Positions 2,812 through 20,310 of a stretch of 25,574 nt of DNA are shown here, piece after piece. The notes below the pieces were generated by a model. It saw nothing but the letters and a program-made list of their open reading frames with translations. It searched no databases and was not told the origin of the DNA. The DNA is from a virus. The position numbers and the translations under genes are program-made. Within the stretch, counting starts at the first letter, position 1. Each line of letters begins with the position of its first letter. The DNA lies in the IMG/VR virus record IMGVR_UViG_3300027708_000272, positions 1 to 25,574 of that record, one strand, 5' to 3'.

Positions 2812-4128
2812 TTACCGATTGAAAGCACGCAAGTCCTCAAGCGAGAGTCCGTCGCTCTCAAACTCCCTGACTCCGTAATACTTCTCGGTCGTGGTGACCG
2901 AACGATGGCCGAGGCCCTTCTGGGCGGCATAGACTCCGGATTTCTCGCTCATGGCGGATCCGAACTGTCGGCGTAACAGATAAGCCTTCTTGCGCTCTCC
3001 ATCAGCGCTGCGGTCGATGTAGCGGTCCATAAAAGCATTGATGCCACGATAACAAATCTCGTGTCTGGCGGTCTTGTGGCGGGCAGGAACAACGTATTCA
3101 TCATCGGGACTGCGGAATGCCTGTAATTTATGCCAAATTTCAACGGGAACTCGATGGGATACGGCCTTGGCCTCCTTGTAATTGCCCCGGACGGTGAATC
3201 GGGTGATGCCATGCTGCATCACAAAGTTCGGCCAGGTCGTCACGAAATCTTCCCAGCGGAGTCGGTAGACCATGTCGTTTCGCAGACCGAAACATGACAT
3301 GAGGATGTAGGCAACCCAAACTGGGGAGCGCTCGGAGTAAAGCTGCTCGGCACCAACTTCCAAATCGATGAACTCCTGAGCACTGAACGGAACAAATCCC
3401 GTTTTTTCATTGGTCTCAAACTCGTAAGAGCAGGATCGGAACATGGTCAGATCAGGTAGCTTTAAATTCTTGTAAGTGTCCATCCGAGATCTCTTAAACA
3501 CGGACCTGGCGTGGACGATCTGAGAAGAGATCGAATGATCTGGTCGACCGCTAGCGCGAGCGTTCTTCACAAAATCATCAATGAGCTCCTTGGTCAAAAT
3601 GTTGCTACGCAAGCCGGAAACATCCTGCCGACCGGTGGAATCCTTGATCAATCCCTGCAACTGCCCGATGTAATCCATGGCAGTGCGCTTTGCAATCTTG
3701 AGCGTCGGGATCGATGCCTCCCATGCCAGGACAATCTCCCCGATGGTGCAAAAATCATTCTTGGTTCGGAGCCGGTCGAGCTTGGAGGTGTCTCCAGTAG
3801 TCTGTGACTCCTCAAAGGTCTTGAGGAATATAATGGCTTTTGCAATGGCAACTTGTCGGATGTCGGTTTTAAGGGAATGCGTCACGACTTTGCCCTGGCG
3901 CTCAAAACGCAAATTGTAAAATGGACTTCCCTTGCGGGTGGTGAGTCGGTAGCTTCGACCGCCATGAATGAAGCCGTCCTTATCCTTGGTCACCTGAGCC
4001 TTTTCGGGCTGGGACTGCTGTTTCTCGGATTTTGCTACGACCTTTGCTACGGATTGCGTGTTCATGGAATGAGTTGTTTCTTTGCTACGGATTTTGCTAC
4101 GGATTTGCTTCGTTTTGATATGTTGCAA
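2812..4128 (-). CDS. int: Tyrosine recombinase (phage integrase)
   Basis: A 438-aa tyrosine recombinase that would catalyse site-specific integration and excision. Residues 47-110 resemble an arm-binding domain, about 125-225 the core-binding SAM-like domain, and 245-425 the catalytic domain. Catalytic candidates are R283 (GLRNDMVYRLRW), K318 or K321, R386 (LLRRQFGSAM), H408 (GLGHRS) and the nucleophile Y417 or Y418 (TEKYYG). The usual first histidine of the HxLR box is replaced by Y383. The start is uncertain: ATG at 4128 gives the longest product, but the first 33 codons are built from the attP repeat (hence RSKIRSKE and SVAKVVAK), and ATG at codon 22 (4065) is a credible alternative. The gene lies next to its presumed attP. 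Expression is probably leftward from within the repeat region; no clear promoter was seen. Confidence 0.95.
   Translation of the reverse strand: MQHIKTKQIRSKIRSKETTHSMNTQSVAKVVAKSEKQQSQPEKAQVTKDKDGFIHGGRSYRLTTRKGSPFYNLRFERQGKVVTHSLKTDIRQVAIAKAIIFLKTFEESQTTGDTSKLDRLRTKNDFCTIGEIVLAWEASIPTLKIAKRTAMDYIGQLQGLIKDSTGRQDVSGLRSNILTKELIDDFVKNARASGRPDHSISSQIVHARSVFKRSRMDTYKNLKLPDLTMFRSCSYEFETNEKTGFVPFSAQEFIDLEVGAEQLYSERSPVWVAYILMSCFGLRNDMVYRLRWEDFVTTWPNFVMQHGITRFTVRGNYKEAKAVSHRVPVEIWHKLQAFRSPDDEYVVPARHKTARHEICYRGINAFMDRYIDRSADGERKKAYLLRRQFGSAMSEKSGVYAAQKGLGHRSVTTTEKYYGVREFESDGLSLEDLRAFNR
4031..4112 (+). repeat. Left arm-type repeats of attP (TTTGCTACGG)
   Basis: Direct copies of TTTGCTACG(G/A) begin at 4031, 4043, 4081 and 4093, with a TTTGCTTCG variant at 4104; TTTGCTACGGATTTTGC at 4081-4097 recurs exactly at 4283-4299 on the other side of the tRNA fragment. 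Short, same-orientation repeats on both sides of a core next to an integrase gene are what arm-type integrase sites look like. They overlap the 5' coding end of the integrase gene. Confidence 0.65.
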
Positions 4129-8832: not shown

Positions 8833-9032
8833 TTTCCGCAACACGTTATCGTCGTGGGGAGCTTTCTTCCTGTGAGACAAAGCGGTTTTGGCAATACCAG
8901 TCTAGCGGTGCCGAGAGGTGGGTGCCTGTAGAGCGTTATGAGTCCCTACGCCACCATTCCGATCTGACATCCCAGGTTGCAGCCGCTGCTCGCGATTGGA
9001 ATCAATCCCGCCGGGAAAGGAGGGCCGCATGA
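8829..9032 (+). CDS. Hypothetical early protein, 67 aa
   Basis: ATG 8829 overlaps the initiator stop (ATGA) and is preceded by CAGGAGGCCGC, a strong Shine-Dalgarno. The 67-aa product begins MISATRYRRGELSSC, is rich in arginine, tryptophan and tyrosine, and ends RRERRAA. The terminal RRAA is encoded by the GGAGGGCCGC cassette that serves the next gene. No family recognised. Part of the chained replication operon. Confidence 0.7.
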   Translation: MISATRYRRGELSSCETKRFWQYQSSGAERWVPVERYESLRHHSDLTSQVAAAARDWNQSRRERRAA

Positions 9033-9292
9033 TTTCTTTAAACATTTTTCAACGCAAACCAAGAATCACCGCTCTTTGCTTAGGTTTGGGTCGTACCCGG
9101 GAAGATTTAAAAAAACAACTAAAGTGCTTACATCGCAACATTGAGGAATTGGTTTCTTTCTATCCCGATGGGACATTCACAAACGGAAAACCGAATGGGG
9201 TTTTAGATTCTTTCAAGACAATTTATTGTGCTGATTGTTTGGCGTTTTATAAAACTCGTTTGAAGCCTCGCAAAGAGAGGAGGGCCGCATGA
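9029..9292 (+). CDS. Hypothetical early protein, 87 aa
   Basis: ATG 9029 overlaps the previous stop and follows AAAGGAGGGCCGC. The 87-aa product begins MISLNIFQRKP, has a basic helix (REDLKKQLKCLHRNIEELV) and a C-x-x-C pair (YCADCLAFY); it ends KERRAA, again from the start cassette of the next gene. Two cysteines alone do not make a zinc finger. Codon use is AT-richer than the neighbours, suggesting later acquisition. Function unknown. Confidence 0.7.
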   Translation: MISLNIFQRKPRITALCLGLGRTREDLKKQLKCLHRNIEELVSFYPDGTFTNGKPNGVLDSFKTIYCADCLAFYKTRLKPRKERRAA

Positions 9293-16253: not shown

Positions 16254-18449
16254 ATGTCACTTGTCAACGACGGGACCGGGTCAAAACTGGAACGAATAGG
16301 AGCCTTGGATGCCGGGGGAGACCTCGGTGAGAATCTAGCCGTCTTGAGCGCCGAGTTGATCCAGTCGACCCGCGATGCGTTTTGGTACTACAACAGGAGC
16401 GAAACTGCTTATTCGACCCGGTTGAACCTTTGGAACGGCCAAAGCGCCGACGGACGCAAGCATGGGGCCGACCTCAATGCCCAGCCCTTCCCGTGGGAAG
16501 GTGCGTCTGACATGAGGCCACGGGTCATTGATGCCGCAATCAACGAACAGGTGATGCTCATGATGCAGGCCTTCACCAAGGCCAACCCTCAAGCCGTAGC
16601 CATGGACTCGGACGACATGGAGTATGCCGAAAAAGTTTCCACGCTGCTCAAATATGTCCTTTGGAACCAGATGCGACCCCAGATCCGCCGCGAGCTTCAG
16701 CTTGCAGCCAACTGGCGCCAGACCTACGGATCAAGCGTGACGGCGATCATGTGGGATCAGCAGTTGCGCCGCACCGTGCAGGATGTGACCCTTGACGGGC
16801 TTGCCACCATGCTTGCCGCGACCGACGACCCGCAAAAGCTGGCCATGGTCAAGCAACAGGTCATGGAGCAAGTCATGGATCCCCTCCGTGAGGAAGAGAA
16901 CCTCCGCGTGCTCATGGGGATGTCACCCATCCTTAAGAAAGGACCCGCCCGCGCCTGTTTGAAAGAATTGCGCGAAACCGGAAAGACCGAAATTCCCGTA
17001 CCCGAAGTCTTTGCGGCCATGCCCCGTTGGAGCGCTTTGCTTCCGATGGTCGATGTCTTTTTTCCGGCAATCACCGACGACATTCAGCGTGCCCCCTGGG
17101 TCGCCCATCGGGAGCGCCTAACCGAAAGCGAACTCCGAGACCGCATCAATACGCATGGTTATGACTCAGACTGGGTCGAGGCTGCGGTCAAGAGAAAGGG
17201 ATTTGTGGTCGATACCTTGACCTCAAACCTTTTGCTCCTCTCCGAATCTCGTCGCAATTTCTGGGGCATCCTTGACTACGAACGGCGAGACCTAATAGAA
17301 ATCTTTCACTTTCACAGAAAATCGGTCGATGATGACGGCATTCCAAATGTTTGGAACACGGTCCTCTGTTTGGGCGTGCGTGACATGGTCGGCCTCGATG
17401 AGGCCCTTCCCTATGAACATGGCCAATACCCTTATGTGGTGCACCAGCGGGAACAGATTGCCCGCACGATCCTTGAATCCCGGGGCATCCCAACCATTGC
17501 CGATACCTGGGAACATGAAATCAAAGTCCAGCGCGATGCCCGCACCGACAGAACAAGTATTTCCGTCCTCCCGCCGATCCTTGTCCCCGCGTCTCGTGGC
17601 GCCATGAACCTCACCTTCGGCCCCGGCACCAAGTGGCCGAGCCGGAGGGGCGAGGAGATCTCCTGGATGAACATCCCGCCGGGGGACGGATCCTCCATCG
17701 AGATCGAAAAGGCCTCGCAGACCACCCTCGACCAATACTTGGGACGCATGACCGGCAATTGCCCGCCACAGCTTGCCCAACTTCACCAGCAAGATCTGGT
17801 CGACGGCTGGCTGCTTGAAATGAGACAGGTCGTCGGTCAGACGCTTCAACTCTGTCAGCAATACATGGCCGAGGATCATGTGGTGAGGATCGTCGGAGAG
17901 CTTCAGCGGCCTTGGAATGCCGGAAGGAGCGAAGTACAGGGCATGTTCGATATCTCCCTTGAGTTCGATATCCGGGATCTCAATCATGAGCTTCTGAAAG
18001 AAAAGTTCGGCCTGCTTCAAGCCGTTTTGGCCAATGACCGATTCGGTCGCGTCGATTACAGCAAGTTCACTGAGATCATGTTCCGCTCCATCGATCCGTG
18101 CATGGCAAGTGCTGTCCTGCAGCCGATGGATCAGGCCACCCAGAGTCAGGTGGCCAATGAGCAATCCGCCCTTACCCAAATGGTTGCCGGGATCGAACCA
18201 CCGATGCAACCGCAGCCTGGCATGAATTATCAACTTCGACTCCAGACCCTTCAGCAGTCCATCCAGATGAACCCCGAGTTGCAACAGATGATTGCGGCTC
18301 GCCCGGTACTTTCCAAAATGGTGGAGAATCGGATCAAATTCCTCAGCTTTCAGATCCAGCAACAAGGCAATGCCCAGATTGGCCGGGTCGGTACCCAACC
18401 GGTGCTGCAGGCAGGTCAAGGCCAGCAATCCCAGCAACCCCAGCAGTAA
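16254..18449 (+). CDS. Portal protein, podovirus-like, 731 aa
   Basis: This protein should form the dodecameric portal through which DNA enters and leaves. Assignment rests on position between terL and scaffold/capsid, length near the roughly 700-aa portals of P22- and Sf6-like podoviruses, and portal-like segments near the N-terminus (AFWYYNRSETAYSTRLNLW, QPFPWEGASDMRPRVIDAAI) with later ELQLAANWRQTYGSSV and HEIKVQRDARTDR. The last 90 residues are glutamine- and methionine-rich (MQPQPGMNY, QQSQQPQQ), probably a disordered or barrel-helix tail inside the capsid. Portal identity is very likely although no catalytic motif can be checked. The start follows a hairpin rather than a ribosome binding site. 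Confidence 0.9.
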   Translation: MSLVNDGTGSKLERIGALDAGGDLGENLAVLSAELIQSTRDAFWYYNRSETAYSTRLNLWNGQSADGRKHGADLNAQPFPWEGASDMRPRVIDAAINEQVMLMMQAFTKANPQAVAMDSDDMEYAEKVSTLLKYVLWNQMRPQIRRELQLAANWRQTYGSSVTAIMWDQQLRRTVQDVTLDGLATMLAATDDPQKLAMVKQQVMEQVMDPLREEENLRVLMGMSPILKKGPARACLKELRETGKTEIPVPEVFAAMPRWSALLPMVDVFFPAITDDIQRAPWVAHRERLTESELRDRINTHGYDSDWVEAAVKRKGFVVDTLTSNLLLLSESRRNFWGILDYERRDLIEIFHFHRKSVDDDGIPNVWNTVLCLGVRDMVGLDEALPYEHGQYPYVVHQREQIARTILESRGIPTIADTWEHEIKVQRDARTDRTSISVLPPILVPASRGAMNLTFGPGTKWPSRRGEEISWMNIPPGDGSSIEIEKASQTTLDQYLGRMTGNCPPQLAQLHQQDLVDGWLLEMRQVVGQTLQLCQQYMAEDHVVRIVGELQRPWNAGRSEVQGMFDISLEFDIRDLNHELLKEKFGLLQAVLANDRFGRVDYSKFTEIMFRSIDPCMASAVLQPMDQATQSQVANEQSALTQMVAGIEPPMQPQPGMNYQLRLQTLQQSIQMNPELQQMIAARPVLSKMVENRIKFLSFQIQQQGNAQIGRVGTQPVLQAGQGQQSQQPQQ

Positions 18450-18516
18450 GGAATAATGAATTATGAAGAAACTTTTTTGTATCTTTTCGTCCCTCATGTT
18501 TCATCGTTCATCCTTC

Positions 18517-18552
18517 TTTCAACCAAAGGTTGAAATCCTCCGCGCCACGCGG
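18517..18552 (+). promoter_or_regulatory. Two tight hairpins directly before ATG 18553
   Basis: TTTCAACC (18517-18524) pairs perfectly with GGTTGAAA (18528-18535) across AAA, and CCGCG (18540-18544) with CGCGG (18548-18552) across CCA. The second hairpin touches the ATG. The preceding leader (18450-18516) is pyrimidine-rich. Confidence 0.5.
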
Positions 18553-18786
18553 ATGGATGACGCCCAGCTCCTTGCTGCGCTTTCAGTCGACAGCGATCAC
18601 CCCGTCCTTCAAGCAATGCTGGAGGTGATTGACCGGGCAAGGACGGAGGCACGGAGTGAGGCCAAGGCTATTATCAAGAGCGATAGGGAAACCATCTTTG
18701 CCCTAGGCAGCGAACATGGCCTCGACCGCCTCGAAGAATACCTGCTCAACCTCCGCGCCGAAGCCATGAGGCAACGTCAGGGTTAA
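18553..18786 (+). CDS. Small helical protein between portal and scaffold, 77 aa
   Basis: A soluble 77-aa helical protein (MDDAQLLAALSVDSDHPVLQ, ARTEARSEAKAIIKSDRETI, LEEYLLNLRAEAMRQRQ). An upstream in-frame ATG at 18463 would add 30 residues that look signal-like, but those codons are the pyrimidine-rich leader with two perfect hairpins, so the ATG at 18553 is preferred. Position just after the portal suggests a small head-assembly factor; similar short proteins follow portals in several podoviruses. No family is certain. Confidence 0.65.
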   Translation: MDDAQLLAALSVDSDHPVLQAMLEVIDRARTEARSEAKAIIKSDRETIFALGSEHGLDRLEEYLLNLRAEAMRQRQG

Positions 18787-18847
18787 CTTTAAACAACTTA
18801 TGCCAATGACCTTCTCCGCGATCGAAAGATTGCGTGACGGGCTTGGT

Positions 18848-19077
18848 AAGGCTAACCCGCTAGCCTTGGACCAGGTGACGATCTGGGGCGGGAAAATTTG
18901 CTAGTTCAAGTTTCTCCAAAGCGGGCCTCATGCTCCGTGAGAACTGTCTAGCCGTCAGGTGCAATGAGGGCTGTCTGCGAATGTGGGCAGAGCGACCTGA
19001 TCACCTGACTCCATTTTAGGAAGGGCGGTGCGATAGCGAGGCGCTGTGCATGGCGAACGTGTAGCCCGTCCCTTCCT
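18848..19077 (+). ncRNA. Candidate structured RNA with at least eight nested helices
   Basis: In the 468-nt gap 18787-19254, perfect or G-U-tolerant helices follow without break. They are AAGGCTA/TAGCCTT (18848-18854 with 18861-18867); CCAGGT/ATCTGG (18871-18876, 18881-18886); GCTAG/CTAGC (18900-18904, 18948-18952); GTCAGGTG/CACCTGAC (18954-18961, 19002-19009) enclosing CTGTCTGC/GTGGGCAG (18971-18978, 18983-18990); and GGAAGGG/CCCTTCC (19019-19025, 19070-19076) enclosing ATAGCG/CGCTGT (19033-19038, 19042-19047) and GCATG/CGTGT (19048-19052, 19058-19062). No long frame crosses the region in either direction. I do not recognise RNase P, tmRNA, a group I or II intron or a riboswitch. Location between portal and scaffold invites comparison with packaging RNA of phi29, but resemblance is positional only. 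Confidence 0.6.
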
Positions 19078-19090
19078 TCATTTTTCATCG

Positions 19091-19243
19091 GAGGTCTCTG
19101 ACCTCGGATCTTTGATCTCAAAAATCCCCCTTAAGCTCGGCACCCGCGGCTCGTACTTTCCGCGTCATGCGACCTTCCTGCGTTCCGGTCATCTCCGCAT
19201 TAAGCGGGGAAAATGAAGCGCTGATTCTGGCGTCCTGAGCGCC
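19091..19243 (+). promoter_or_regulatory. Scaffold leader: hairpins and the shared CCCCCTTAAGCTCGG box
   Basis: The leader has GAGGTC/GACCTC (19091-19096, 19100-19105), the box CCCCCTTAAGCTCGG at 19126-19140 identical to the portal leader, CGCGG/CCGCG (19145-19149, 19160-19164), TCTCCGC/GCGGGGA (19192-19198, 19204-19210) and GGCG/CGCC (19229-19232, 19240-19243), 11 nt before the scaffold ATG. No Shine-Dalgarno is present. It continues the structured region to its left and may belong to the same transcript. Confidence 0.5.
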
Positions 19244-19254
19244 GTACAAACCTC

Positions 19255-20310
19255 ATGAGCGAAAGCACCAAAGCAGTATCAGACCCACTGGAGTCCGCCT
19301 ACAGCGACATCCTGGATCACCTCCCGCCCGAAGTAGCCGAGGCACTAGGCCAAAGTAAAGGCCAAGGCGCATCAGCCAAGGCATCCAAAGCCGAAACCCC
19401 AGCTGCCGAAAACGAAGAGGATGATGCGGAAGAAATTGAAGAGACTCCCGAAGAAAAGACAGAGCAGACGGAGCAGACAGAGCAGTCAGACGAGGAAGAT
19501 TCCGAAGATCCCGAGGATCTCGAAGATCCCGAGAGCAAAGATGAAACGGAGGACAAGTCCACTAGGAAGCTAGAAAAGCGCATCGACAAGCTGACCCGCC
19601 GACGTAAGGAGGCAGAGACGCTAGCCGAATCGCTGAAAACGGAGAACGAGCAACTCAAAGCCGACATTGAAAAGCGGAGCGTGATCAAACTGGAGGCAAC
19701 TCCGGAGGATCCGCTTGCCGACCTCGATGACGCCGGAGAATTGGAAGCCAAGGTTTCTGCGGCCAAGAAGGTACGCGCCTGGGCACTACAGAATCCGGAC
19801 GGAGCCACGGTGACTAATGCCGATGGATCCGAGCGCTATGTGGATCGCGCTGAAATGGCAAAGTTCATTGCCCAGACCGACGCGCTTCTCTCCGACCATG
19901 CACCATCCCGCCGCGAGTATCTCCGCGAACGCGAAGCCATCCTCCCCGAGGCCAAGGCGACCTATCCGGCGCTTTTCAAAGCCGGAAGTCAGGAACATCA
20001 GGTGATGGTGGATACCCTGAGACGGGTTCCCTCGCTTAAACGTCTGCCCGGCTACGAGCTCGTCATCGGTGACGCGCTGGCCGGGATGAAGCTCCGCCAA
20101 GCCTCCGCTCAGTCCAAGTCCGATACTGCAAAGGCAGCCACCGCAAAGCAATCAAGCGCCAAAATGGGTGCCAGGGCCATTGCCCCGGCGATCCCCAAGG
20201 CATCGGCCAGCAGGCCGCCCGCCGCAAGCACGCGAGAAAAATCCAATGAGCGCGATCGAGTCCTCTCGTCCGGGCGCATGGATGACCTTGCCGCGTATTT
20301 CGGCGGGTAG
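19255..20310 (+). CDS. Capsid scaffolding protein
   Basis: A 351-aa protein immediately upstream of the capsid gene. Residues 55-105 are extremely acidic and repetitive (three TEQ triplets from a 9-nt repeat near 19459-19488, then SEDPEDLEDPES). Residues 103-140 form a coiled coil (KLEKRIDKLTRRRKEAETL), and the C-terminus is alanine-rich and basic (GARAIAPAIPKASASRPP). An acidic/coiled-coil body with a basic C-terminal helix is the usual composition of internal scaffolds that guide capsid assembly. No protease motif is visible, so it is not a protease-scaffold fusion. Position and composition carry the call; sequence family membership cannot be checked here. Confidence 0.85.
   Translation: MSESTKAVSDPLESAYSDILDHLPPEVAEALGQSKGQGASAKASKAETPAAENEEDDAEEIEETPEEKTEQTEQTEQSDEEDSEDPEDLEDPESKDETEDKSTRKLEKRIDKLTRRRKEAETLAESLKTENEQLKADIEKRSVIKLEATPEDPLADLDDAGELEAKVSAAKKVRAWALQNPDGATVTNADGSERYVDRAEMAKFIAQTDALLSDHAPSRREYLREREAILPEAKATYPALFKAGSQEHQVMVDTLRRVPSLKRLPGYELVIGDALAGMKLRQASAQSKSDTAKAATAKQSSAKMGARAIAPAIPKASASRPPAASTREKSNERDRVLSSGRMDDLAAYFGG

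Follow-up and report, generated by a model that had tools for sequence, protein, structure and literature searches.

The window, that is, the whole stretch of 25,574 nucleotides of viral DNA analyzed here (IMG/VR record IMGVR_UViG_3300027708_000272), contains a gap of 468 nucleotides (18787-19254) in which no convincing ORF and no tRNA were found. As such, the gap is gene-free, as had been claimed in the original prediction of an undescribed structured RNA between portal and scaffold genes. The gap does lie upstream of the scaffold gene; the portal gene (16254-18449), however, is not its immediate neighbor, with a 107-residue ORF being found in between. The genes that border the gap are:

18463-18786, + strand: ORF of 107 amino acids, family not assigned; left border of the RNA locus
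19255-20310, + strand: scaffold gene (PHROG 8865, head scaffolding protein, E 2.4e-5)

Searches of PHROG and Pfam with the 107-residue product yielded no match; the gene is kept in relatives at 62-100%. BLAST searches of phages and plasmids with the gap, and likewise with related cassettes, also returned no match.

The helices listed in the original prediction are present, including the pairing of GTCAGGTG and CACCTGAC (18954-18961 with 19002-19009), the inner 8-bp G-U-tolerant hairpin (18971-18978 with 18983-18990) and the GGAAGGG/CCCTTCC stem (19019-19025 with 19070-19076) with its inner hairpins. Relative to shuffled sequences, the folding energy of the gap was modestly low on the + strand (z -2.42) and unremarkable on the - strand (z -1.04), while two of the modules described below gave lower values when folded alone (module C, z -3.1; module D, z -2.8). 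Because folding energy alone is insufficient to settle structure, relatives of the locus were relied upon. Searches started from the 107-residue ORF, the portal and the capsid protein recovered some 15 IMG/VR contigs sharing the same gene order, here given handles beginning with L; no portal relatives were detected among the genome contigs searched.

Comparison of these contigs revealed the position of the gap to be fixed and its content to be variable, with lengths of 142 nt (L018 and L022), 152 nt (L006), about 195-205 nt (L004, L007, L008 and L009), 360 nt (L005), 383 nt (L003), 468 nt (the window), about 620 nt (L013) and 700 nt (L010). The 5' portion, or cassette (about 18811-19090), is absent from L006, L018 and L022. 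In L003, which encodes a portal 99% identical to that of the window, a different 5' cassette is found, and nothing but the 3' leader and module D is common to the two. In the distant phage C75C1, with portal and terminase proteins 29-32% identical to those considered here, only 55 nt separate the equivalent genes. Given this variable content and the short gap in C75C1, the cassette is an exchangeable insertion rather than a constant component of the head operon. Judged from these comparisons, the gap thus comprises several separable structured RNA modules and not the single structured RNA originally proposed, with the 5' cassette corresponding to a chain of such modules that are exchanged between phages. 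In L010, L013, L028 and L071, the cassettes are flanked by short repeats (for instance, CTGAAGGCTGAAGG or GAACTCAGGAA) that may be exchange sites. Elsewhere, a frameshift divides the terminase gene of the near-identical contig L001 (826-2510).

The final 88 nt before the scaffold start codon, termed module A, were present in all 13 phages aligned and are predicted to fold as follows:

19167-19254, + strand: module A, scaffold leader
19171-19174 with 19187-19190, + strand: hairpin 1
19193-19198 with 19204-19209, + strand: hairpin 2
19180-19185 with 19216-19221, + strand: pseudoknot, loop of hairpin 1 (GCRYTT) with AAGYGC
19229-19232 with 19240-19243, + strand: hairpin 3
19167-19238, + strand: candidate upstream ORF of 23 codons with its end in the hairpin 3 loop, uninterrupted in every relative read

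When pairing was counted on a MAFFT alignment of the 13 sequences (12 distinct), 96.2% of cells were paired and four pairs showed two-sided changes. The number of cells with such changes (11) exceeded that seen upon shuffling (3.2; 0 of 500 shuffles), as did the covariation score (0.235 vs. 0.131), whereas sliding the partners by 1-3 columns reduced pairing to 32-48%. The pseudoknot considered alone was 98.6% paired, with G-U, A-U and G-C variants being seen. The covariation among homologues that had been named as a check of the original prediction was, accordingly, found in module A, as it was in module C (below). The possibility that module A instead reflects a small protein was considered and rejected; the place of the upstream ORF is conserved, but AAGYGCTGA falls in one frame in some relatives and in a second frame in others. 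As AAGYGCTGA is conserved across this frame change, the constraint would act on the RNA, and constraint at the nucleotide level offers the better explanation for its conservation. Since module A directly precedes the start codon, translational control of the scaffold gene is the natural inference; while the structure is revealed by comparison, the role would thus be one that we infer. In phage P22, scaffold synthesis is controlled after transcription, and module A could act in a manner similar to scaffolding autoregulation in that phage, if it is indeed regulatory.

Upstream of module A, the cassette of the window contains four further modules, all on the same strand. Three of these are:

18817-18892, + strand: module B, common to the window, L013, L028 and L037
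18817-18834, 18848-18867 and 18871-18886, + strand: GAAA-loop hairpin, hairpin 1 and hairpin 2 (GACG loop) of module B
18856-18860 (CCCGC) with 18888-18892 (GCGGG), + strand: pseudoknot of module B
18912-18943, + strand: module F, hairpin TTCTC[CAAAGCGGGCCTCATGCTCCGT]GAGAA
19019-19076, + strand: module D, GGAAGGG/CCCTTCC stem with a TGCA-loop hairpin (19042-19055), then TTCATTTTT

Across the four phages carrying module B, two-sided changes were seen in three of the four columns of hairpin 1 and two of the six columns of hairpin 2, with the pseudoknot strands being invariant. The interior of module F is shared at 93% with L071, an unrelated contig in which TCTAC/GTAGA takes the place of the outer stem. 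Module D is nearly identical in L003 and appears in a longer version in L013, L028 and L037, with two of the five columns of the TGCA hairpin changing on both sides. With two to five sequences for each, the predicted structures of modules B, F and D are more weakly supported than those of modules A and C.

The fourth module, module C, comprises:

18954-19013, + strand: module C (30 distinct elements, invariant core)
18954-18961 with 19002-19009, + strand: P1, 8-bp stem
18962-18967 (C-AAU-GA) and 18998-19000 (UGA), + strand: kink-turn
18968-18969 with 18996-18997, + strand: P2, 2-bp GG/CC stem
18971-18978 with 18983-18990, + strand: P3, 8-bp hairpin
18991-18995, + strand: AGCGA bulge
19010-19013, + strand: TCCA, directly after P1

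A first pattern describing the core recovered 11 IMG/VR contigs, seven of them new and of different gene content. A second pattern, in which the hairpin sequence was left free and TCCA was required within 6-12 nt, recovered 37 stretches, all but a few of which were accepted by a covariance model built solely from the first set. In this manner, some 25 phage contigs were found to carry module C. Common to the 30 distinct elements is the core CAWUGAGGG ... AGCGACCUGA, while P1 (usually 8-11 bp) and P3 are of almost arbitrary sequence; L088 deviates slightly beside the kink-turn, and L081 and the element at L074-3820 present a shorter perfect P1. Two-sided changes were seen in all eight P1 pairs and in six of the seven P3 pairs. 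In the alignment fitted to the model, 87 cells showed such changes, as compared to 21.8 upon shuffling (0 of 500 shuffles), and the same was seen when the first nine elements were aligned with MAFFT without fitting to the model. P1 pairing served as a control: the 18 members tested presented 8-11 bp, pattern matches that had been rejected presented 1-5 bp, and at random positions at least 8 bp were found in 0.24% of cases. Pattern matches in L077, L095, L079, L098, L083 and L087 were rejected as they lacked the P1 stem. The invariant portion includes a 3-nt bulge and tandem G-A pairs, with CAWU-GA and UGA being invariant or nearly so in the 30 sequences. We take this strand pattern, C-AWU-GA-GG / CC-U-GA, to be that of a kink-turn. 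Box C/D RNAs and U4 snRNA likewise present a kink-turn with a 3-nt bulge and tandem G-A pairs in the same strand pattern; the kink-turn is, however, a structural motif and not a family, and the likeness to module C is one of sequence pattern.

Chance folding in a decayed gene, or a coding region overlooked by the gene caller, would be in keeping with the modest folding z-scores and with module C being open in one frame in L047-type contigs. Such an explanation is nonetheless hardly credible, given the strong covariation. Moreover, coding across module C was rejected, as the length of the core (35 and 37 nt) and that of P3 vary out of frame.

A scan of a bacterial genome collection covering 84,980 species with the narrow module C pattern gave no match; as only this narrow pattern was used, the result points weakly to the absence of module C from cellular genomes. 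In L045, two module C copies (8871-8949 and 9151-9212) face each other on opposite strands in about 1.9 kb of gene-poor DNA, with one P3 being wholly different. Tandem elements are seen in L071 (2417-2502 and 2711-2780) and L074 (3684-3758 and 3820-3905), and between the two L071 copies lies another structured unit that contains module F.

Examination of the surroundings of module C revealed several elements to lie among tRNA genes. One element occupies the entire interval from tRNA-Met to tRNA-Trp in L076, another abuts tRNA-Met in L072, and a third, in the 205-kb contig L090, follows tRNA-Leu in a stretch containing 15 tRNAs. The location of the gap in the head operon is the sole point in favor of a packaging RNA analogous to the phi29 pRNA, one of the roles originally envisaged. 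This reading now seems extremely improbable, as close relatives with the same, intact head genes lack the cassette (gaps of 142-152 nt), as only 55 nt are found in C75C1, and as module C occurs in tRNA arrays far from packaging genes. The positions of module C bear equally on the idea that the entire gap acts in cis as a single long leader of the scaffold gene, with the variable 5' part adding only spacing or stability. All modules are indeed on the same strand upstream of that gene, where module A is conserved, and module C also precedes the scaffold gene in L082, L010 and L013. Still, other contigs present module C upstream of terL, on the strand opposite the head genes or in tRNA arrays, and three relatives do without the cassette, rendering a single long leader rather improbable.

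In 25 of 29 module C elements, including that of the window, (N)CCA directly follows P1, such that P1 resembles an acceptor stem with its (N)CCA end, although this frequency is biased by the requirement, in the second scan, for TCCA near the core. Among lineages recovered independently of that requirement, CCA is present in the window, L013, the L047 group, L071-2417 and L074-3820, and missing from L010, L046 and L045-9151. U-runs are frequent after the CCA. Sigma70-like promoters lie immediately before P1 in four contigs, with the start of transcription being placed at P1 in L089, L081 and L086. In the fourth, L046, the -10 box (TATAAT) adjoins P1, so that the start would fall inside P1; no promoter was seen before module C in the window. 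No full tRNA (RF00005, with T, D and anticodon arms above cut-off) was detected in the window or at module C elements, nor did ARAGORN detect a tmRNA, i.e., a tRNA-like domain with a T arm and a coding tag.

Other tRNA-like units were also noted. At the site of the gap in L005 (4295-4366), a sub-threshold tRNA match was obtained (25.6 bits vs. a cut-off of 29), and in L096, module C is followed by a similar unit at about 440-512. Both include a T arm and an acceptor stem, lack the GG of the D-loop, have an odd anticodon loop and share TCTAACGCAAAAGAAC. A further unit, read by eye in L003 and L010, consists of a TTCCCG/CGGGAA stem and CCA. Finally, L096 (about 280-355) and L086 (about 3170-3240) share an RNA-like unit starting with CCTCCTACTCTCAATTAAAGCG, which in L096 contains a CTCTCAA/TTGAGAG stem.

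A search of the window with the Rfam 15 models, at both gathering and relaxed thresholds, returned no relevant match (GOLLD, ROOL, OLE, phi29 pRNA and others); weak matches, such as MIR840 and HgcE, were attributed to chance. The assertion that the RNA belongs to no known class thus stands. In the contigs carrying module C, Rfam matches corresponded only to true tRNAs, none at module C. No description of a module C-type RNA was found in the literature searched, subscription papers and preprints aside; within these bounds, the family appears to be new.

By location, the nearest known kinds are T4 RNA C and RNA D, GOLLD and ROOL. GOLLD and ROOL are also structured RNAs encoded by phages, often near tRNA islands, but measure hundreds of nucleotides as compared to about 60-85 for module C, and matched neither at the gathering threshold nor, in the window, at E values up to 5. 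T4 RNA C and RNA D (species 1 and 2) are similarly small, stable RNAs other than tRNAs that lie next to a phage tRNA cluster, yet no module C match was found in the T4 tRNA region or genome; an unfiltered search of that region with covariance model R2 gave a best E value of 2.1, at unrelated places. As compared to a tRNA, module C shares an acceptor-like stem of usually at least 8 bp, the (N)CCA tail and the position in tRNA arrays, but lacks D, anticodon and T arms and is recognized by neither ARAGORN nor the Rfam tRNA model.

In GOLLD, the 3' part is conserved and the 5' part less so, and tRNAs may be carried (PMC12286853). By analogy, modules B, F, C and D could be domains of one composite non-coding RNA of 200-500 nt in the style of GOLLD or ROOL, an arrangement to which the recurrence of the C-D order and of the CCA-NTTTAG linker in the window, L013 and L045 would also point. 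In other contigs, however, module C is found by itself, either preceded by its own promoter or next to tRNAs, and L028 and L037 contain B and D-like parts without C. Together with the lack of an Rfam match, this makes a composite RNA unlikely.

Instead, the gap is probably a hotspot at which small phage RNA genes are inserted, coupled to a cis-acting leader, with module C being tRNA-like and acting in trans and module A controlling the scaffold gene. A trans-acting RNA and a leader, both suggested at the outset, are accordingly each plausible and seemingly both present, in the 5' cassette and in module A, respectively. As far as sequence comparison goes, module C defines a compact RNA family with a predicted acceptor-like stem, kink-turn, variable hairpin and CCA end, found also inside tRNA arrays. 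Transcribed alone or within the chain, module C RNA would be trimmed at P1 and CCA by host tRNA-maturation enzymes and would then act in trans as a stable tRNA mimic, while the pseudoknot leader of module A would set translation of the scaffold gene. The single likeliest role for module C, offered tentatively, is that of a decoy or competitor for tRNA-acting enzymes during infection, such as tRNA-cleaving defenses; a ribosome-related role and participation in larger RNA assemblies are also conceivable. More broadly, it is conceivable, if somewhat short of probable, that several phage lineages encode a hitherto undescribed family of tRNA mimics, with a kink-turn and a free hairpin in place of the tRNA body, which are made by the tRNA-maturation pathway, act in trans, for example as decoys for tRNA-targeting defenses, and move between phages alongside other novel tRNA-like RNAs.

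Module A would provide an additional testable RNA element for the control of scaffold synthesis. The module C family, in turn, offers biochemistry a 60-nt object that Rfam does not contain, that combines an invariant core with freely covarying stems and that recurs in tRNA arrays and head operons. As such, it bears on the old question of the role of the stable non-tRNA RNAs, like T4 RNA C and RNA D, GOLLD and ROOL, that lie beside phage tRNA genes.
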